Assembly (NCBI RefSeq): GCF_022865125.1 | Contig: NZ_CP094828.1 | Location: 3,465,219 to 3,529,218, forward strand | Direction: 5' to 3' | From: Acuticoccus sp. I52.16.1 | Lineage (GTDB): Bacteria > Pseudomonadota > Alphaproteobacteria > Rhizobiales > Amorphaceae | Length of the DNA: 64,000 bases | Part shown: piece by piece, positions 1 to 8,971 of the stretch | How positions within the stretch are numbered: the stretch's first letter is position 1 | How the letters are laid out: every line of letters begins with the position of its first letter | Translations under genes and position numbers: made by a program | The notes under the pieces: generated by a model | Told to the model about the DNA's origin: nothing | Databases searched by the model: none | The model's input: the letters and a program-made list of their open reading frames with translations, nothing else

Positions 1-1030
1 GGGCGCCGACTTCGCCGACCTCGCCGGCTTCCCCGAGCGGCGCCGCCAGTCCGAGGCGCGCGGCAAGCTGCGCGGTCTCGGCGTCGCCATGTGCATCGAG
101 GCCGCCGGCGGTCCCTACGGGCGCACCTCGCCCGACTATTCGGACGTGATCGTTGGGGAGGACGGGCGCATCGTCCTCACCGGCGGAGCCTTCAGCGCCG
201 GGCAGGGGCTGGAGACGGCGATGATCGACCTCGCCGCCGGCGCGCTCGGCCTGTCGCCGGGCGACTTCCGCTACGTCCAGGGGGATACCGACGACGTGCC
301 CAAGGGCAAGGGCATGGGCGGCTCCTCGGCGATGATCTCGTGCGGCTCGGCCGCCCTGGAGGCCGCGCGCGACCTCATCGAGAAGGCCACGAAGAAGGCC
401 GCCGATAGGCTGGAGGTCGCCGAGGTCGACGTCGAGTACGAGGCCGGCAGCTTCCGCGTCGTCGGGACCGACCGCACGGTGAGCCTCGCCCAGCTGGGTG
501 CGGACGCGGCGGCGGCGGGCGAGCGGCTTGCCGGCAACGGCGCCTTCCAGCCGCAGGAGGCGACCTTCCCCAACGGCTTCCACGTCTGCGAGGTGGAGGT
601 CGACCCGGACACCGGCGAGACCCGCATCGTCGGCTACAGCGCGGTCGAGGACATCGGCCGGGTGCTGAACCCGCAGCTCGCCTCGGGCCAGATCCACGGC
701 GGCGTGGTGCAGGGCCTCGGACAGATCCTGCAGGAGGACGTGGTCTATTCTCCCGGCGACGGGCAGCTCCTGTCGGCCAGCCTGATGGACTATTCCGTCC
801 CCCGCGCCGACGACATGCCCACCGTGCGCACCGCCTTCTGCGCGGTCGAGACGGCGCTCAACCCGCTCAAGGTCAAGGGCGTCGGCGAGGCGGGTTCGGT
901 CGGCGCCGTCGCGGCCGGGCTCAACGCCGTCAACGACGCGCTCGCCCAGCGCGGCGTCCCCTCGTTCGACATGCCGGCGACCCCGTCACGGGTGTGGGAG
1001 GCGCTCCACAAGGCACAGGGTGTGCGATGA
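1..1030 (+). CDS. Xanthine dehydrogenase/CO dehydrogenase family molybdopterin-binding subunit, C-terminal part
   Basis: The reading frame is open from the left edge (frame starting at base 2), so this is the 3' part of a longer gene; about 342 codons are visible. It shows the hallmarks of the molybdopterin-cytosine-dinucleotide-binding large subunit of the xanthine oxidase/CoxL family: a glycine/serine-rich GKGMGGSSAM cofactor segment and, near the end, VKGVGEAGSVGAVAAGLNAV. The Glu in GVGEAG (codon 887-889) aligns with the catalytic Glu next to molybdenum. Such enzymes hydroxylate heterocycles, aldehydes or CO together with FAD and 2Fe-2S subunits, which would lie to the left or elsewhere. 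The CoxL-specific loop lies outside the window, so substrate cannot be assigned. It needs molybdenum, which gives some context to the modE/modA pair at 46 kb. Confidence 0.9.
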   Translation, partial: GADFADLAGFPERRRQSEARGKLRGLGVAMCIEAAGGPYGRTSPDYSDVIVGEDGRIVLTGGAFSAGQGLETAMIDLAAGALGLSPGDFRYVQGDTDDVPKGKGMGGSSAMISCGSAALEAARDLIEKATKKAADRLEVAEVDVEYEAGSFRVVGTDRTVSLAQLGADAAAAGERLAGNGAFQPQEATFPNGFHVCEVEVDPDTGETRIVGYSAVEDIGRVLNPQLASGQIHGGVVQGLGQILQEDVVYSPGDGQLLSASLMDYSVPRADDMPTVRTAFCAVETALNPLKVKGVGEAGSVGAVAAGLNAVNDALAQRGVPSFDMPATPSRVWEALHKAQGVR

Positions 1031-1176
1031 CGACGCTCGCCTCCGGCGCACGGCCGGCGCGATGACTGTTTGTCGGACGATGACGGGCATGCGGGATCGT
1101 TGCCGCCGTCTGCCGCGTTGTGAGGGGGCCCGCTGTATGGTACCGGGTGCCCTCGAGTATTTGGTGGAGTCCGCCA

Positions 1177-1587
1177 ATGATAGCACGATTACTTTTCAGC
1201 GTTGTTTTGGTAACTGTCGGGTTGGTGTCGTCGGCTGGCGCAGAAGAGCAGCTCAGCGCACGGCAAATCCGGGAATTCATGCTTGGGGCCAAGATGTCCG
1301 GCGTTTTGGTCGAGACCAACGAGCGCTGGTATGAGTGCGTCGCGCCCAGCGGGGATACGGTCTACAACCTGGAGGGGCACATCTCGACCGGGTTCGTCGA
1401 GATCGAGGAATCGGGCCGCACCTGCTTCACCTATCCCCGCATGCAGACGACGTCTCGCTCCTGCTTCCACGTGCAGATGGAGGAGGGCAAGCGCGTCTTC
1501 GTCGAGGAAACCTCGCGCATCAAGTTCCGTGTCGACGAGATTGACCGCGGGTTCGATCAATGCCCCGCTTCACAGCCGGTCAGCTGA
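1177..1587 (+). CDS. Small secreted protein of unknown function
   Basis: 136 residues. I place the start at ATG 1177 because a GGTGGAG ribosome binding site lies just upstream (about 1164-1170) and the protein then begins with a clean signal peptide (MIARLLFSVV... ending SAGA-EE), so it is probably periplasmic. The mature part has cysteines spaced along the chain (WYECVA, RTCFTY, RSCFHV, DQCPA), suggesting one or two disulfides, and alternating strand-like segments. I recognise no domain. It stands alone between the molybdoenzyme end and the TauE-type exporter. Confidence 0.7.
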   Translation: MIARLLFSVVLVTVGLVSSAGAEEQLSARQIREFMLGAKMSGVLVETNERWYECVAPSGDTVYNLEGHISTGFVEIEESGRTCFTYPRMQTTSRSCFHVQMEEGKRVFVEETSRIKFRVDEIDRGFDQCPASQPVS

Positions 1588-1671
1588 CCGCCGCCTCGGC
1601 CAGACCGCTCGGGCCCCGCTGACACCCGTCGCGCACCCTCGCTCCGTGGGGCTTCGTCCGGCGCGGCGGCG

Positions 1672-2409
1672 ATGACGATCTTCCTCGTCCTCAGCACGAT
1701 CTTCGTCGGCTCGGTCATGAAGGGGGCGATCGGCATCGGTCTGCCGCTGCTGGCGACGCCGGTGCTGTCGATCTACCTCGGCGTGCCGGCGGCGGTGGCC
1801 ATCGTGTCGATCCCGATCGTCGCGACCAACGCCCGGCAGGTGGTGAAATTCCGGGCCGACGTGTTTCGTCAGCGCTACCTCGCGGCCTTCCTCGTCGCCG
1901 GGGGTGTCGGCGTGGTCCTCGGCACCACGGTCCTCGTCAGCGCGCCGGTGGCGCTGCTGCAGATCGGGCTGGGCGGCGCGGTGCTGGCCTACCTCGCGAT
2001 CCAGCTCCTCATGCCGCCGCTCGTCATCACACCGGCGCAGAGCCGCGTTCTGGGCGGCCCCGTGGGCCTCCTCACCGGGTTGTTGCAGGGGGCGGTCGGC
2101 ATCTCCAGCGTGGTCAGCATCACCTTCCTGCAGGCGCTGCGGCTGGAACGGGCGGCCTTCGTCGGCTCCATCTCCTCGATGTTCCTGATGTTCTCGACCA
2201 TCCAGATCGCGGCGCTGGTGGTGGAGGGGACGATGACGCGCGAATATGCCGCCCTCGGCGCGCTCTCGCTGCTGGCGGCCGGGGCGGGGATGTGGCTGGG
2301 CGACAAGTTCGCCTCCCGCATGACGGCGACGCTCTTCCGCCGCGTCGTCTTTGCGATGCTCGGCCTCCTGTCGGCGATGCTCGTCATCGGCGGTGTCGCC
2401 GCCCTCTGA
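1672..2409 (+). CDS. Sulfite exporter TauE/SafE family inner-membrane protein
   Basis: 245 residues, almost entirely hydrophobic, with about eight predicted membrane segments and the internal two-fold repeat typical of the family: an N-terminal GAIGIGLPLLATPVLS segment and a second-half counterpart around GLLTGLLQGAVGISSVVSI. Family members move sulfite, sulfoacetate or other organosulfur anions across the inner membrane; the substrate cannot be read from sequence. The length matches the family. No clear Shine-Dalgarno is visible before ATG 1672. It seems to be a single-gene unit. Confidence 0.85.
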   Translation: MTIFLVLSTIFVGSVMKGAIGIGLPLLATPVLSIYLGVPAAVAIVSIPIVATNARQVVKFRADVFRQRYLAAFLVAGGVGVVLGTTVLVSAPVALLQIGLGGAVLAYLAIQLLMPPLVITPAQSRVLGGPVGLLTGLLQGAVGISSVVSITFLQALRLERAAFVGSISSMFLMFSTIQIAALVVEGTMTREYAALGALSLLAAGAGMWLGDKFASRMTATLFRRVVFAMLGLLSAMLVIGGVAAL

Positions 2410-2543
2410 CGCCATCCGCGCCGCTCGCCCGCCGGCCCCGGCGACCCGTCGCCACGGCGTGCCCCGCGTGCCCCACATCGCACCCCCGTGCCCGCGATCG
2501 CGGTGCGGCGCACAAAGCCGCACCTTGGTCCAATTCAAACGAC

Positions 2544-2577
2544 TTGACCGATGCGACTGGTTCTCAATAACAATTGG
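2544..2577 (+). promoter_or_regulatory. Candidate promoter/operator for sitABCD
   Basis: TTGACC (2544-2549) resembles a -35 element and is followed about 17-18 bp on by an AT-rich stretch (TCAATAACAATT, 2564-2575) that could hold the -10. This is the only AT-rich patch in front of sitA. A CCAATT (2530-2535) and its complement AATTGG (2572-2577) flank it. SitABCD operons are usually repressed by a metal-sensing Fur/Mur or MntR protein, so an operator here is expected; I cannot match the site to a named consensus. Confidence 0.35.
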
Positions 2578-2599
2578 CGGGGCAACAAGGGGTGCTATG

Positions 2600-3499
2600 A
2601 TGCACGATTGTGCGCGGTGGCTGGCTGCGGCCGGGGTGATCGTCGCGATGGCCGGACCCGCCGCCGCGGCCGACCGGATGAAGGTCGTCACGACCTTCAC
2701 CGTCCTCGCCGACATGGCCCGGAACGTCGCCGGGGATGCGGCCGACGTCGTCTCCATCACCAAGCCCGGCGCCGAGATCCACGGCTACCAGCCCACCCCG
2801 CGTGATATCGTCGGCGCCTCGGACGCCGACCTGATCCTGTGGAACGGCCTCAACCTCGAGCGCTGGTTCGAGCAGTTCCTCGCCAATCTCGGCGACGTGC
2901 CGTCGGTCACGCTGTCGGACGGGATCGAGCCGATCCCCATCGCCGCGGGTTCCTACGAGGGGCGGGCCAATCCGCACGCCTGGATGGGCCTCGCGAACGC
3001 TCTCCACTATGTGGATAATATCCGCGACGCCTTCGTCGCTCAGGACCCGGACAACGCCGCCACCTACGAAGCCAACGCCGCCGCCTACAAGGACGAGATC
3101 AGCGCCACCCTCACCCCCCTGCGCGACGCGCTGGCGGCGGTGCCCGAGGACAAACGCTGGCTCGTCACCTGCGAGGGCGCGTTTAGCTACCTGGCGCGTG
3201 ACTTCGGCCTCCAGGAGCTCTACCTCTGGCCGATCAACGCCGATCAGATCGGCACCCCGCAGCAGGTCCGCGCGGTGATCGACGGGGTGCGCGAACACGA
3301 GATCCCCGTGGTCTTTTGCGAAAGCACGGTCAATACTGCACCTGCCGAGCAGGTCGCGCGGGAGACGGGTAGCCGATACGGCGGCGTCCTCTACGTAGAC
3401 TCGTTATCGACGGCCGATGGACCGGTGCCCACCTACCTCGACCTCCTGCGCGTGACGTCCGAGACCATCGTCGACGGTCTCACCGCGGCCAGGCCATGA
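2600..3499 (+). CDS. sitA: Manganese/iron ABC transporter, periplasmic binding protein SitA
   Basis: 299 residues, cluster A-I metal-binding protein. ATG codons at 2597 and 2600 are both possible; AAGGGG at 2587-2592 fits 2600 better. A signal peptide (about 1-24, ending PAAAA-D) exports it. Candidate metal ligands are H61 (EIHGY), H126 (NPHAW), E241 (FCESTVN) and D267 (YVDSLST). The C-terminal region ([20 protein letters not shown]) is characteristic of SitA/YfeA rather than ZnuA, and there is no histidine-rich loop as zinc binders have. It delivers Mn2+ or Fe2+ to SitBCD, encoded just downstream. Confidence 0.93.
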
Positions 3500-3510
3500 C
3501 ACCCCGAGAG

Positions 3511-3538
3511 CGCACCGCCGCCGCCGTCCCCCGGTGCG
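3511..3538 (+). other. Intercistronic hairpin between sitA and sitB
   Basis: CGCACCG (3511-3517) and CGGTGCG (3532-3538) form a perfect 7-bp inverted repeat with a 14-nt loop, 12 nt after the sitA stop. There is no T-tract, so it is not a typical intrinsic terminator. It may protect the sitA message from 3' decay or dampen expression of sitBCD. The hairpin would bury a GTG at 3534, which argues for the later sitB start. Confidence 0.5.
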
Positions 3539-3563
3539 GCCGATGCCAGAGAGGAAACCCAGC

Positions 3564-4505
3564 GTGCTCGACCAGCCGAAGGTGACACGTCACGCGCCGG
3601 CGCCCGGCGGGCACGGCATGGCCGGCGGTCCGGCGGAGGCGACGGCCGACGAAGCCGGCATCGTCGCGCGCGACGTCACCGTCACCTACCGCAACGGCCA
3701 CACCGCGCTGACCCACGCGACCTTCGAGGTGCCGCGCGGCAGCATCGCCGCGCTGGTAGGGGTGAACGGCGCCGGCAAGTCGACCCTCTTCAAGTCCATC
3801 ATGGGGTTCGTCCCCGCCGCCCAAGGCGAGATCCGCCTCCTGGGCCGCACCGTGCGCGACGCGCTGCGCCTCAACCTCGTCGCCTACGTCCCGCAGTCCG
3901 AGGAGGTCGACTGGTCGTTCCCGGTGCTGGTCGAGGACGTCGTCATGATGGGGCGCTACGGCAAGATGGGCTTCCTGCGCCGCCCGTCGCGGGCCGACCA
4001 CGCGGCCGTCGCCACCGCGCTCGACCGCGTCAACATGGCCGACTTCCGCCACCGGCAGATCGGCGAGCTGTCCGGCGGGCAGCGCAAGCGCGTCTTCCTC
4101 GCCCGCGCCCTCGCCCAGGACGGCCAGGTGATCCTGCTCGACGAGCCGTTCACCGGCGTCGACGTGAAGACCGAGGACCAGATCGTCGCCCTCCTGCGCG
4201 AGCTGCGCGCCGAGGGCCGGGTGATGCTGGTCTCCACCCACAACCTCGGCTCCGTGCCCGAGTTCTGCGACCGGACCGTCTTCGTCAAAGGCACCGTCCT
4301 CGCCTACGGGCCGACCGAGACGACCTTCACCCGCGAGAACCTGGAGCGCGCGTTCGGCGGCGTCCTGCGGCACTTCACCCTGTCCGGCCAGATGCTGCAC
4401 GACGACGACGACCCGCGCGAGATCTCCATCATCACCGACGACGAGCGCCCCGTGGTCCACTACGGCGACTGCGCCCAGCGCGCCAACCCGGAGGAGGGCG
4501 CCTGA
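3564..4505 (+). CDS. sitB: Manganese/iron ABC transporter ATP-binding protein SitB
   Basis: 313 residues from GTG 3564, chosen because GAGGAAA (3551-3557) is well spaced before it; an in-frame GTG at 3534 and ATG at 3543 lack such a site. All ABC ATPase motifs are intact: Walker [10 protein letters not shown] (about residues 66-74), Q-loop [10 protein letters not shown], signature LSGGQRKRV, Walker [13 protein letters not shown], and the switch His in STHNLG. It energises metal uptake through SitCD. A 30-residue N-terminal extension precedes the domain, and the C-terminal tail has a DDDD run (HDDDDDP) and an EEGA end. Confidence 0.93.
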
Positions 4506-5416
4506 TGGCCTTCCTCGCCACGCTCGCCGAGCCCTTCTCCTACGGCTACATGACGAACGCCATGTGGGTCTCGGCGATGGTCGGCGGGGTCTGTGCCTTC
4601 CTGTCGGCCTACCTGATGCTCAAGGGCTGGTCGCTCATCGGCGACGCGCTCTCGCACTCCGTGGTGCCGGGCGTCGCCGGGGCGTACATCCTGGGCCTGC
4701 CGTTCGCCATCGGCGCCTTCCTGGCGGGTGGGCTGGCGGCGACGGCGATGCTCTTCCTGTCCAACCGCTCCGGCCTCAAGGTCGACACCATCATCGGCCT
4801 CATCTTCACCGCCTTCTTCGGGCTCGGCCTCTTCATGGTGTCGCTCAACCCGATGGCGGTCTCGATCCAGACCATCACCATGGGCAACATCCTGGCGATC
4901 ACGCCGGAGGACACCCTGCAACTCGTCGTCATCGGCGCCGTCTCGCTGGCGGTTCTCCTATTGAAGTGGAAGGACCTCATGGTCGTCTTCTTCGACGAGA
5001 ACCACGCCCGCTCCATCGGCCTGCGGCCGGGCCTTCTCAAGGGGGTCTTCTTCGTCCTCCTCTCGGCTGCCACCGTCGCCGCCATGCAGACGGTGGGTGC
5101 CTTCCTGGTCATCGCCATGGTGGTGACGCCGGGCGCCACCGCCTACCTCCTGTGCGATCGCTTCCCGCGGCTCATCGTGGTGTCGGTCACGATCGGCGCG
5201 GTGACGAGTTTCGTCGGCGCCTATGCCAGCTACTTCCTGAACGGGGCGACCGGCGGCATCATCGTCTCGCTTCAGACGCTGGTGTTCCTCGCGGTTTTCC
5301 TCGGCGCGCCCAAGCACGGCCTGCTCGCCGCCCGCCGCAAGGCCGCCGCGGCACTGGAGCCGGAGCGCCCCGCGCCGGCGCCCGCGGCGCCCGTGGTCGC
5401 GGAGAGCCGCCCGTGA
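4505..5416 (+). CDS. sitC: Manganese/iron ABC transporter permease SitC
   Basis: 303 residues, ABC-3 family permease with about eight membrane helices; conserved MLKGWSLIGDALSHSVVPG lies in the N-terminal third. Its start overlaps the sitB stop by one base (TGATG at 4503-4507), so translation is coupled. The C-terminal tail is Ala/Pro/Glu rich (PERPAPAPAAP) and probably cytoplasmic. It pairs with SitD as the channel of the Mn/Fe importer. Confidence 0.92.
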   Translation: MAFLATLAEPFSYGYMTNAMWVSAMVGGVCAFLSAYLMLKGWSLIGDALSHSVVPGVAGAYILGLPFAIGAFLAGGLAATAMLFLSNRSGLKVDTIIGLIFTAFFGLGLFMVSLNPMAVSIQTITMGNILAITPEDTLQLVVIGAVSLAVLLLKWKDLMVVFFDENHARSIGLRPGLLKGVFFVLLSAATVAAMQTVGAFLVIAMVVTPGATAYLLCDRFPRLIVVSVTIGAVTSFVGAYASYFLNGATGGIIVSLQTLVFLAVFLGAPKHGLLAARRKAAAALEPERPAPAPAAPVVAESRP

Positions 5417-6273
5417 CCCTCGCCGACCTCGCGATGCCGTTCCAGTTCCCGTTCATGCAGAACGCCTTTCTGATCGCGGTCATCGTTGCGATCCCCTGCG
5501 CGCTGCTGTCCTGTTTCCTCGTCCTCAAGGGCTGGGCGCTGATGGGGGACGCGGTCAGCCACGCCGTCCTGCCGGGGGTGGTGCTGGCGTGGATCCTCAA
5601 CATTCCCCTCATCATCGGCGCCTTCGCGGCGGGGATGACGTGCGCGCTCGCCACCGGCTACCTCTCCCACAACAGCCGCGTGAAGCGTGACACCGTCATG
5701 GGCGTGGTCTTCTCGGGCATGTTCGGCGCCGGCATCGTCCTCTACACCTCGATCACCTCCGACGAGCACCTCGACCATGTGCTCTTCGGCAACATGCTGG
5801 GCGTCGGTCGGGCCGATCTCCTGACGGCGGGCGCGATCTCGCTCGCCGTCTCGCTCGCCCTGCTGCTGAAGTGGAAGGACCTGCTGCTGCACGCGTTCGA
5901 CCCAGCGCAAGCGCAGGCGTGCGGCCTCGACACGGGCCTCCTGCACTACGGGCTCCTGGCGATCCTCTCGCTGACCATCGTCGCGACGCTGTCCTCGGTG
6001 GGCATCATCCTCGCGGTGGGGCTGCTGATCGCGCCCGGGGCGATCGCCTTCCTCCTGGTGCGAAGCTTCGGCCGGATGCTGGTGGTCGCCGTCGCGGTCA
6101 CGATCGCCGCCATGGTCGCCGGCACCTACGCCAGCTTCTTCCTCGACAGCGCCCCCGCACCGACGATCATCCTGGTGCTCACCGCGGTCTTCGTCGTCGC
6201 CCTGGTGCAGCGCGAGTTGGTGACCCGCGCCCGCTCGCGCCGCGCCATCGCCGCCCCAGAAGTCGCCGGCTGA
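5413..6273 (+). CDS. sitD: Manganese/iron ABC transporter permease SitD
   Basis: 286 residues from GTG 5413, overlapping the sitC stop by four bases (GTGA). The same frame is open further upstream inside sitC, but the coupling and the family alignment (MPFQFPFMQNAFLIAVIVA) favour 5413. It is an ABC-3 permease with LVLKGWALMGDAVSHAVLPG, paralogous to SitC, and forms the other half of the heterodimeric channel. It is the last gene of the sit operon. Confidence 0.92.
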   Translation: MTLADLAMPFQFPFMQNAFLIAVIVAIPCALLSCFLVLKGWALMGDAVSHAVLPGVVLAWILNIPLIIGAFAAGMTCALATGYLSHNSRVKRDTVMGVVFSGMFGAGIVLYTSITSDEHLDHVLFGNMLGVGRADLLTAGAISLAVSLALLLKWKDLLLHAFDPAQAQACGLDTGLLHYGLLAILSLTIVATLSSVGIILAVGLLIAPGAIAFLLVRSFGRMLVVAVAVTIAAMVAGTYASFFLDSAPAPTIILVLTAVFVVALVQRELVTRARSRRAIAAPEVAG

Positions 6274-6386: not shown

Positions 6387-7826
6387 ATGTCGTTCCAATT
6401 CAAGTCCGCCGACGCTTCGCTGCAGGACGGTGTCCGCCGCGTTGCGCGTTCGCAGATCCGCCGCGCCCTGGAGGAGGCCGCCGCGACCACCGATCCAGCC
6501 GAGGCCGTCCACAGCGTGCGCAAGCGGTGCAAGAAGGTGCGCGGCCTCATCCGCCTGGTGCGTCCGGGTCTGCGGGGCTACGGCGCCAAGAACGCCGCGC
6601 TGCGCGATGCGGCGCGCCCGCTGTCGGGCGTGCGCGACACCGCCGTCATGGTCGAGACCTACGACAAGCTCGCCAAGGCCTTCCCCGACCGGCTCGACCG
6701 CGCGGCGAGCGCTACGGTGCGCGCCCACCTCGTCGACGCGCGCCGCGCCGCCCATGTCGACGACGCCGCGTTCGGTGACGCCATGGCCGAGTTCCGTTCC
6801 GCCCTCGCCGCGCTGCTCGACGAGATCGCCACCTGGAAGGTCGACGGCAAGGCCGCCGACGTGGTGGCCGAGGGGGCCGGCCGCGTCGCCAAGGACGCCA
6901 CCAAGGCGCTCGAGGCGGCGCTGAAGAAGCCGACGCCGGACCGTCTTCACGAGTTGCGCAAACAGGTGAAGTACCACACCACCCACATCCGCCTGCTGCG
7001 CGAGGTGTGGCCCGGACCGATGAAGGCCGTCGCCGACGAACTCTCCTACCTCGGCGACCTCCTGGGCGACGAGCGCGACCTCGCCCTCTTCGTCGAGACG
7101 CTGCGGGCCGGCCCGCTGGCGCCGGAGCTGACCGCCGACGTGATCGCGCTGGCGGTGCAGCACCGCGCCGCCGTGCAGGCCGAGGCGCTGGCCCTCGCCC
7201 AGCGCGCGTTCGCGGACGAGCCCAAGGCGGTCGCCGAGCGGATCGAAATGCTGTGGCGGGTGTGGCGCCGCGGCGTCTCCGCTCCGGCCGAGATCTCCGG
7301 CGAGGGTGACGCCGGGGCCGCGTCCGAGGAGGAGCCGGCGGATCCGGGCGCCCCGGTCGCCGGCACCGAGATCGAGCGCAAGTTCATGGTGGTGGGGGAC
7401 ACCTGGCGCGACGCGGTGCGCGAGACGATGGCACTGCGCCAGGCCTATATCGCCAACACCGAGACGCTCAGCATCCGCGTGCGCATCAAGAACGACAGTG
7501 AGGCGACGCTCACGGTCAAGAGCGCCGCCATGACGCTGGCGCGCACCGAGGTGGAGTTCAAGATCCCGCTCGGAAAGGCCGAGGCGCTGATGAGCCTTGC
7601 CACCGGCCTCACCATCGAGAAGCGCCGCCACGTCGTCCCCGTCGGCGGGATCGACGTCGAGGTCGACGAGTTCGTCACCCCCGATCCGGCCCTGGTGATG
7701 GCCGAGGTCGAGCTGTCCCGGCCCGACGCGCCGCTGCCGGTCGCGGCCTGGCTCGGCCGCGAGGTGACGGGAAACCCGCGCTACTACGGTGCCACCATGG
7801 CCGCCGCCGTCCGTCCCGCCGACTGA
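6387..7826 (+). CDS. CHAD domain - CYTH domain protein (inverted order)
   Basis: 479 residues. The N-terminal half (about 1-290) is a CHAD domain: helical, rich in conserved His/Arg/Lys, with paired motifs AVHSVRKRCKKVRGLIRL (about 33-50) and RLHELRKQVKYHTTHIRLLR (about 188-207), the basic surfaces that bind polyphosphate. A Pro/Glu-rich linker (about 305-325) leads to a CYTH domain (about 326-479) with the ExExK signature E328-I-E330-R-K332 and further conserved Arg/Lys/Glu such as SIRVRIKND and EVEFKIPLG. CYTH enzymes hydrolyse inorganic triphosphate or make cAMP. Most fused proteins run CYTH then CHAD; here the order is reversed. An AAAGG site precedes ATG 6387. It is probably transcribed alone and may act in polyphosphate or triphosphate metabolism. 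Confidence 0.88.
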   Translation: MSFQFKSADASLQDGVRRVARSQIRRALEEAAATTDPAEAVHSVRKRCKKVRGLIRLVRPGLRGYGAKNAALRDAARPLSGVRDTAVMVETYDKLAKAFPDRLDRAASATVRAHLVDARRAAHVDDAAFGDAMAEFRSALAALLDEIATWKVDGKAADVVAEGAGRVAKDATKALEAALKKPTPDRLHELRKQVKYHTTHIRLLREVWPGPMKAVADELSYLGDLLGDERDLALFVETLRAGPLAPELTADVIALAVQHRAAVQAEALALAQRAFADEPKAVAERIEMLWRVWRRGVSAPAEISGEGDAGAASEEEPADPGAPVAGTEIERKFMVVGDTWRDAVRETMALRQAYIANTETLSIRVRIKNDSEATLTVKSAAMTLARTEVEFKIPLGKAEALMSLATGLTIEKRRHVVPVGGIDVEVDEFVTPDPALVMAEVELSRPDAPLPVAAWLGREVTGNPRYYGATMAAAVRPAD

Positions 7827-7993: not shown

Positions 7994-8971
7994 GTGACCG
8001 ACACCACCGACCGCGCCTTCACCGGGGGCGCCTATGGCATGGGCCTCGAGAACTGGTTCGGCGGGGCCACCAGCCTGTTCCGCCGCCGCTACGCGCGCGA
8101 TCCTTCCGGTGCCGACGTCGCGGTGCTGGGCGTCCCGTTCGACCAGGCCGTGACCAACCGGCCTGGCACCCGCTTCGGTCCGCGCGCGGTGCGCACGGCC
8201 TCGTCGGCCGTCGCCTGGCCCGGCGGACCCTGGCGCTGGACCGACGACCCCTTCGCCCACCTCGACGTGGTCGACACCGGCGACCTCACCTACGACATCG
8301 GCGATCTCCCCGCCTTCGCCGCCACCCTGGAGGCGCGCGCGGCCGAGATCATCGCCACCGGCGCCAAGCTCTTCACCCTCGGCGGCGATCACTTCATCAC
8401 CTACCCGATCCTCAGGGCGCACGCCGCGCGGCACGGCCCGCTCGGCCTCGTGCAGTTCGATTCCCATAGCGACACCTGGCGCGACACCGGCCCGCGCATC
8501 GATCACGGCACCATGTTCTTCCGCGCCGTCGAGGAGGGGATCATCGACCCGGCGCGCTCGGTCCAGGTCGGCATCCGCTCCGGCAACGAGGAGACCTTCG
8601 GCCTCACCACCATCGACGCCGACGCCGTCGCCGACCATCCGCCCGCCGCCGTCGCCGAGCGTATCCGCCAGATCGCCGGCCCCGGCCCCAGCTACCTGAC
8701 CTTCGACATCGACGTTCTCGACCCCGCCTTCGCCCCCGGCACCGGCACCCCGGTGTGCGGCGGCATGACCCCCAACACCGCCGAGCGCATCCTGACCGGC
8801 CTCGCCGGCGTGCCGTTCGTCGGCATGGACGTGGTGGAGGTCTCGCCCGCCTACGACGTGTCGGAGATCACGGCGCTGGCTGCGGCGACGATGGCGCTCA
8901 ACATGATGGGCCTCTTCGCCGTGATGGCGGGCGCGCCGGGCTTCGGCCCGCGGCCCACCGGCGCGCTCTGA
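7994..8971 (+). CDS. speB: Agmatinase/ureohydrolase family protein
   Basis: 325 residues from GTG 7994, with GGAG at 7984-7987. It is a ureohydrolase (arginase fold) with the binuclear manganese ligands in place: H133 (GGDHF), D156/H158/D160 (FDSHSD), D238/D240 (FDIDVLD). Length and the GTPVCGGMT segment fit proteobacterial agmatinases, which cleave agmatine to putrescine and urea; guanidinobutyrase or guanidinopropionase activity in the same fold cannot be excluded. No transporter or decarboxylase partner lies beside it. Its Mn requirement sits well with the nearby SitABCD, though that may be chance. Confidence 0.85.
   Translation: MTDTTDRAFTGGAYGMGLENWFGGATSLFRRRYARDPSGADVAVLGVPFDQAVTNRPGTRFGPRAVRTASSAVAWPGGPWRWTDDPFAHLDVVDTGDLTYDIGDLPAFAATLEARAAEIIATGAKLFTLGGDHFITYPILRAHAARHGPLGLVQFDSHSDTWRDTGPRIDHGTMFFRAVEEGIIDPARSVQVGIRSGNEETFGLTTIDADAVADHPPAAVAERIRQIAGPGPSYLTFDIDVLDPAFAPGTGTPVCGGMTPNTAERILTGLAGVPFVGMDVVEVSPAYDVSEITALAAATMALNMMGLFAVMAGAPGFGPRPTGAL

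Follow-up and report, generated by a model that had tools for sequence, protein, structure and literature searches.

Two kinds of described protein provide the background for the gene reported here. The E. coli protein YgiF (PDB 5A60) carries a CYTH and a CHAD domain in one chain, the CYTH domain N-terminal and the CHAD domain C-terminal. It is described as a tripolyphosphatase whose helical domain binds polyphosphate; its C-terminal CHAD stimulated the tripolyphosphatase activity, and this CHAD is reported to lack a central pore and to have shorter helices (PMC6537752). In a network of CYTH proteins, clusters 1 and 4 include CHAD-bearing members; cluster 1 holds YgiF and cluster 4 is mostly actinobacterial (PMC8233210). 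The second kind comprises proteins with one of the two domains. NE1496 (NeuTTM; PDB 2FBL, 3TYP), solved as a short CYTH chain without CHAD, is presented as a highly specific tripolyphosphatase and possible metabolite-proofreading enzyme, with Tyr-28 and Lys-52 as its catalytic pair, and according to the same source an equivalent of Lys-52 is seemingly absent from YgiF (PMC3440374). CtCHAD (6QVA), RcCHAD (6QV5) and PptA (6RN5) are CHAD chains solved without a CYTH domain.

The window analysed here, by which we mean the whole stretch of 64,000 nucleotides from Acuticoccus sp. I52.16.1, encodes a single protein that contains the same two domain families as YgiF in the reverse order. Its gene is laid out as follows:

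6387 to 7826, plus strand: CHAD-CYTH fusion gene, 479 amino acids, ATG start, TGA stop included (supported by same-genus orthologues).
6387 to 7271, plus strand: CHAD domain, residues 1-295, with the Pfam core at 21-240 (Pfam, structure model, CtCHAD and RcCHAD matches, residue counts).
7272 to 7355, plus strand: linker, residues 296-323, variable and predicted to be disordered (orthologue alignment, structure model).
7356 to 7811, plus strand: CYTH (triphosphate tunnel) domain, residues 324-475, of the short NE1496/NeuTTM type (Pfam, 3TYP/2FBL match, fold).
7368 to 7382, plus strand: ExExK signature, residues 328-332 (E328, E330, K332; sequence, alignment, residue counts).

The first-pass annotation had read this protein as a CHAD domain followed by a CYTH domain, and the Pfam searches bear it out: CHAD (PF05235) matches residues 21-240 (E 5.5e-28; 98.9 bits against a cut-off of 25.6) and CYTH (PF01928) matches residues 327-445 (E 2e-11; 44.5 bits against a cut-off of 23.2). 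Three other genomes of the same genus keep the fusion in an uninterrupted frame, at 69, 61 and 46% identity, and we therefore conclude that it is neither a chance arrangement nor a frame error. No second CHAD or CYTH place was found in the genome of the window beside the fusion gene.

An AlphaFold2 model built from a 35-row alignment has a mean pLDDT of 90.9 and a pTM of 0.76, and we read it for each domain separately rather than for their mutual placement. Predicted helices run from residue 12 to 295 and strands from 324 to 459, so that the limits of 1-290 first given for the CHAD part were correct within a few residues. The N-terminal part matches the solved stand-alone CHADs with Z scores of 17.7-19.8 (19.8 for RcCHAD; 19.6 over 284 residues, at 3.8 Å, for polyphosphate-bound CtCHAD), and the fold is common to all three over almost the whole of this part; taken with the Pfam score, this identifies it as a CHAD domain. 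The best YgiF row, 5A60, reaches a Z score of 14.1 and places residues 1-287 of the model on residues 210-428 of YgiF, which is its C-terminal CHAD; 201 residues align with the YgiF domain versus the 284 with CtCHAD. For the CYTH part, the model matches NE1496 (2FBL; Z 15.3 over 140 residues, 3.4 Å) and AtTTM3 (5A68; Z 13.7). By sequence, too, NE1496 is the closest solved CYTH protein (E about 1e-11, residues 327-475).

E328, E330 and K332 form the ExExK signature where it had been reported, and together with Y354, R364, R366, K378, R386, E388, E390, K412, R414, D427, E440 and E442 they are identical in all 12 rows compared; aligned to NE1496, Y354 and K378 correspond to the catalytic Tyr-28 and Lys-52. 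By alignment, then, the catalytic CYTH residues that we checked are retained. In the CHAD part, H42, R45, K49, R83, H188, R191, K192 and K195 are identical in 26 of 26 rows. The residues of CtCHAD that contact polyphosphate and were mutated are His253, Arg256, Arg260, Arg296 and Arg418/Tyr419 (PMC6537752). The first four align with H42, R45, K49 (a conservative change) and R83, and Arg418/Tyr419 align with T198/T199 and are not retained, so that, of the five contact sites compared, four are retained or show a conservative change. The fused proteins also show drift of some histidines that are conserved in nearly all stand-alone CHADs: position 230 is histidine in 22 of 23 other CHADs and arginine in the window protein and in A. 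yangtzensis, and positions 197 and 200 are alanine and glutamine in the fusion protein of a further Acuticoccus genome (G006). Metal binding by CHAD histidines has been argued to be unlikely (PMC6537752); copper resistance has been tied to YgiF and two of its histidines (PMC10892726).

From these observations, and from the phylogeny given below, we consider it likely that the gene encodes a single-chain polyphosphate-processing enzyme that was fused once in Acuticoccus, independently of the YgiF type. The protein is probably cytoplasmic. Judging from the kept residues and the fold, its N-terminal CHAD would grip polyphosphate chains or granules through a basic patch, and the tethered NeuTTM-type CYTH would, by analogy with YgiF, hydrolyse tripolyphosphate or short chain ends with the help of metal ions. 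The fusion would mainly provide co-localisation and equal dosage of the two domains. A competing reading, which we hold to be doubtful but the best of the alternatives, is that the CHAD serves as a phosin-like granule tether, while the CYTH acts on another triphosphate (thiamine triphosphate, ATP) or is a metabolite-cleaning tripolyphosphatase that makes no use of long chains. It would accord with the strict specificity and the possible proofreading role reported for NeuTTM (PMC3440374), and with the apparently flexible connection of the domains in the model; however, linkage to a polyphosphate binder suggests a substrate derived from polyphosphate, and the stimulation of YgiF by its own CHAD, as described in PMC6537752, points the same way.

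In the orthologue alignment, variability is concentrated in the linker, which differs in length and whose pLDDT falls below 50 at residues 298-306 and 313-316. Because it varies in this way and is predicted to be disordered, we expect tethering rather than a fixed facing of the CHAD helices towards the CYTH tunnel, and domain order is probably of little weight for the chemistry. The suggestion of the first-pass annotation that the swap changes how the polyphosphate-binding helices face the catalytic tunnel is thus not supported as stated: no fixed orientation follows from such a linker, and its apparent flexibility makes the argument from facing a weak one. A variable and predicted disordered linker, and the existence of relatives that encode CHAD and CYTH as separate genes, would also suit a scheme in which two separate proteins are made from the gene through an internal translation start or processing of the linker, but the frame is unbroken across the linker in all four orthologues, and we regard the production of a single chain as far more probable than this scheme, which we judge improbable.

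How unusual the order is was assessed in several samples of genomes. Separate searches with Pfam CHAD and Pfam CYTH covered 219 genomes from the phylum and matched 118 and 119 of them, respectively. A script then paired rows with the same contig, strand and frame length. Among the matches listed, it took in all 150 CHAD rows and, of the 150 CYTH rows, the strongest 133; on visual inspection, none of the 17 weaker CYTH rows lies on a contig with a listed CHAD row. Among the matches listed for these 219 genomes there are 37 same-frame pairs, 36 of them CYTH-CHAD (in one of these, the second pair of G043, the CHAD row is interrupted by a stop) and one CHAD-CYTH, which is the window gene. That CYTH-first is the usual order, as the first-pass annotation had assumed, is borne out by these counts. 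Ten further pairs are adjoining separate genes, nine with CYTH followed by CHAD (all in family f23) and one with CHAD followed by CYTH (G581); an eleventh neighbour line is the second piece of the G043 CHAD.

Frames of at least 430 amino acids without a listed partner comprise, among the matches listed, 29 CHAD rows and 12 CYTH rows. In 28 of the former the CHAD domain lies near the C-terminal end (144-323 residues before it, 44-122 after), and in the remaining one (G485, L184) it occupies residues 232-522 of 540. Ten of the CYTH frames begin with the CYTH domain and continue for 250-306 residues; the other two (G424, G531) end with it and contain no CHAD by profile. None of the partnerless long frames was thus seen to be a hidden CHAD-CYTH protein.

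We also searched with a profile of the fused protein (A2) in overlapping samples: 397 genomes of the order (179 matched), 398 of the phylum (111 matched) and 367 of the class (18 matched at E 1e-25). Among the matches listed, the only CHAD-CYTH fusions are four from Acuticoccus; the profile is tuned to the CHAD and CYTH kinds of the window, and reversed fusions of another kind would escape it. Each listed row with a frame of at least 430 amino acids in the order and phylum samples was settled by inspection of the sequence or by a search for domains. Several candidates were set aside in this way. Three (G224, G290, G356) have a single frame figure of 459-469 and a stop between the domains; in G368 the two domains lie in separate overlapping frames, and in G102 in separate frames. 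By profile, the long frames of G126, G092, G278, G302, G424, G582, G531, G107 and G324 each contain just one of the two domains.

In a collection of named genomes, a query with the single protein returned no relative, whereas an alignment-based query did find relatives. The resulting 57 loci, with one genome per species, include two CHAD-CYTH fusions (L033 and L034), both from Acuticoccus and identical with cases already counted (G002 and G006). Four further loci have a CHAD gene followed by a neighbouring CYTH gene (L041 from Rhizorhapis, L050, L067 from Chromatocurvus and L069 from Devosia), two have the opposite succession (L063, L083) and three have the genes on opposite strands (L048, L054, L058); in the remaining 46 the flanks examined contain no short CYTH. 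The contig bearing L050 is assigned to a metagenome-assembled genome of Anaerolineaceae, and in the 54-row tree described below its CHAD is almost the same as that of an alphaproteobacterial genome of family f31 (L095/L097; G115, G194); the contig is possibly misbinned on that account. In all the samples searched, the CHAD-CYTH order is not widespread. Protein-domain databases very likely list this architecture already. Among the papers listed by searches of the open-access literature, none has a title or an abstract opening that mentions a protein with an N-terminal CHAD and a C-terminal CYTH. What sets the fusion apart is the reversed order, its separate origin and its narrow spread; both domains are already known.

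Unfused genes of the two kinds are often neighbours. Among 145 CHAD rows, a non-random sample gathered by similarity, a short CYTH gene lies just downstream on the same strand in 12 and just upstream on the same strand in 20. One genome (G014) has CHAD and then CYTH in one frame interrupted by one stop codon, the ATG of the CYTH following six bases after the stop, and the arrangement in G224, G290 and G356 resembles it. In such tandems the step to a fused form can be short, and readthrough of the stop could yield some fused product. These one-frame, single-stop tandems (L012, L093 and L124 in G014; L117, L118 and L119) occur in four genomes of one genus (f6 g7). One assembly (G213; locus L113, positions 514 to 2955, minus strand) contains a short NE1496-type CYTH followed by a stand-alone-type CHAD with no intervening stop, that is, the same kinds of domain as the window protein in the opposite order. 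Its CHAD groups with CYTH-then-CHAD tandems (SH-aLRT 86 in a 129-row tree; 98/79 with L009 in a 54-row tree), and the G213 fusion is therefore probably a separate event from both the YgiF and the window fusions.

A tree was built for each domain. The CHAD sequences were analysed in a tree of 129 rows, thinned from the 145 by dropping the stand-alone CHADs of L176-L205 except at four loci, and in a tree of 54 rows, in which the stand-alone rows were hand-picked and the bootstrap was not fully settled. The CYTH tree has 58 rows and 145 columns, weak inner branches and no YgiF-type rows; an iterated short-CYTH profile found no YgiF-type CYTH at E 1e-3, and these sequences were left out for that reason. 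The four fused proteins form one clade in each: the CHADs with SH-aLRT 99 in the 129-row tree and 100/99 in the 54-row tree, and the CYTHs with SH-aLRT 99 among the short CYTHs. Neither the CHAD nor the CYTH tree gives the fused clade a supported sister, so that no relative is shown as its direct precursor; in the 129-row tree, the fused CHADs belong to a set of 28 rows (support 95) to which tandems like that of Devosia do not belong.

In 17 rows a long N-terminal part precedes the CHAD, and a branch with 100/100 support separates these rows, one from Acuticoccus itself (L172, G004) among them, from the fused ones. They represent the YgiF-type clade, E. coli YgiF itself not being among the tree rows; Pfam recognizes a CYTH in the long N-terminal part of 15 of the 17 (not in L018 or L184). 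Stand-alone CHADs occur on the YgiF-type side as well, five in the 129-row tree and two in the 54-row tree. Forcing the four fused and the 17 YgiF-type CHADs together in the 54-row tree costs 158 log-likelihood units (p-AU 7e-10); the constraint was picked once the split was visible in the first tree, and some of the 17 were flagged for long branches and odd composition. The ancestry of the fused CHAD is separate from that of the YgiF type, and from the trees and the short CYTH type we conclude that both domains of the window protein derive from stand-alone kinds. An independent fusion, raised as a possibility from the sequence at the outset, is strongly supported by the CHAD trees and the AU test. 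That the window protein is instead a rearranged, domain-swapped CYTH-CHAD of the YgiF type is very improbable: one Acuticoccus genome, in which no reversed fusion was found, does carry an ordinary CYTH-CHAD, but the AU test, under the model used, rejects a single clade of fused and YgiF-type CHADs, and the CYTH, by its matches of the short NE1496 type, groups with short CYTHs in a tree built without YgiF-type rows. Under the independent origin that we favour, a stand-alone CHAD gene would have been joined, once in the Acuticoccus lineage, to a stand-alone short-CYTH gene downstream of it; a step with adjacent genes is suggested by the relatives in which the two are neighbours.

Within the genus, four of eight Acuticoccus genomes carry the CHAD-CYTH fusion (G000, G002, G005, G006). 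The ordinary CYTH-CHAD is that of G004 (L172, positions 490 to 2160, minus strand), a protein of 556 amino acids with its CHAD at 269-552; a weak additional match in this genome (E 9.8e-4) was dropped when the ORFs of the region showed no clear CHAD. No CYTH match was found in the other three genomes (G001, G003, G007), of which G001 is only 89% complete, and the fusion protein may therefore be dispensable. A PPK1-family match is present in all eight. The genes that flank the fusion in the window are as follows:

2600 to 6273, plus strand: genes for a ZnuA-type binding protein, an ABC ATPase and two permeases (ZnuA by Pfam, the rest by ORF list and similarity).
7994 to 8971, plus strand: arginase-family gene downstream, which also adjoins the fusion in G002 and G005.

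The ZnuA-type metal ABC transporter operon lies just upstream of the fusion, and this order is kept in G005; within the stretch read, the operon was not found beside the fusion in G002 or G006. In G007 an arginase-family orthologue is present and the fusion is absent from 1.5 kb on either side. The upstream stretches of the four fused genes, compared with a view to a shared control site, align poorly.

In the reversed fusion, known parts are combined in an unusual but comprehensible way. No new chemistry is demonstrated; the fusion makes a neat case for the evolution of domain fusions and a handy natural construct for the study of CHAD function. A broader reading, which we offer tentatively as possible rather than probable, is that of a two-part machine of CHAD and a NeuTTM-type CYTH that recurs and, outside the YgiF lineage, has undergone fusion on two or more occasions and in either order; since fusion occurs in both orders, the CHAD would act in such a machine as a flexible tether or feeder that makes a strict tripolyphosphatase nibble long polyphosphate or work on granules. 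Natural fusions in both orders, together with unfused neighbours, offer a comparison for the role of CHAD in a polyphosphate-cutting enzyme, one that bears on geometry versus mere tethering. We stress that proteins combining CHAD and CYTH are not one family by descent, and function should therefore be transferred to them from YgiF only once the kinds of CHAD and CYTH that they contain have been checked.
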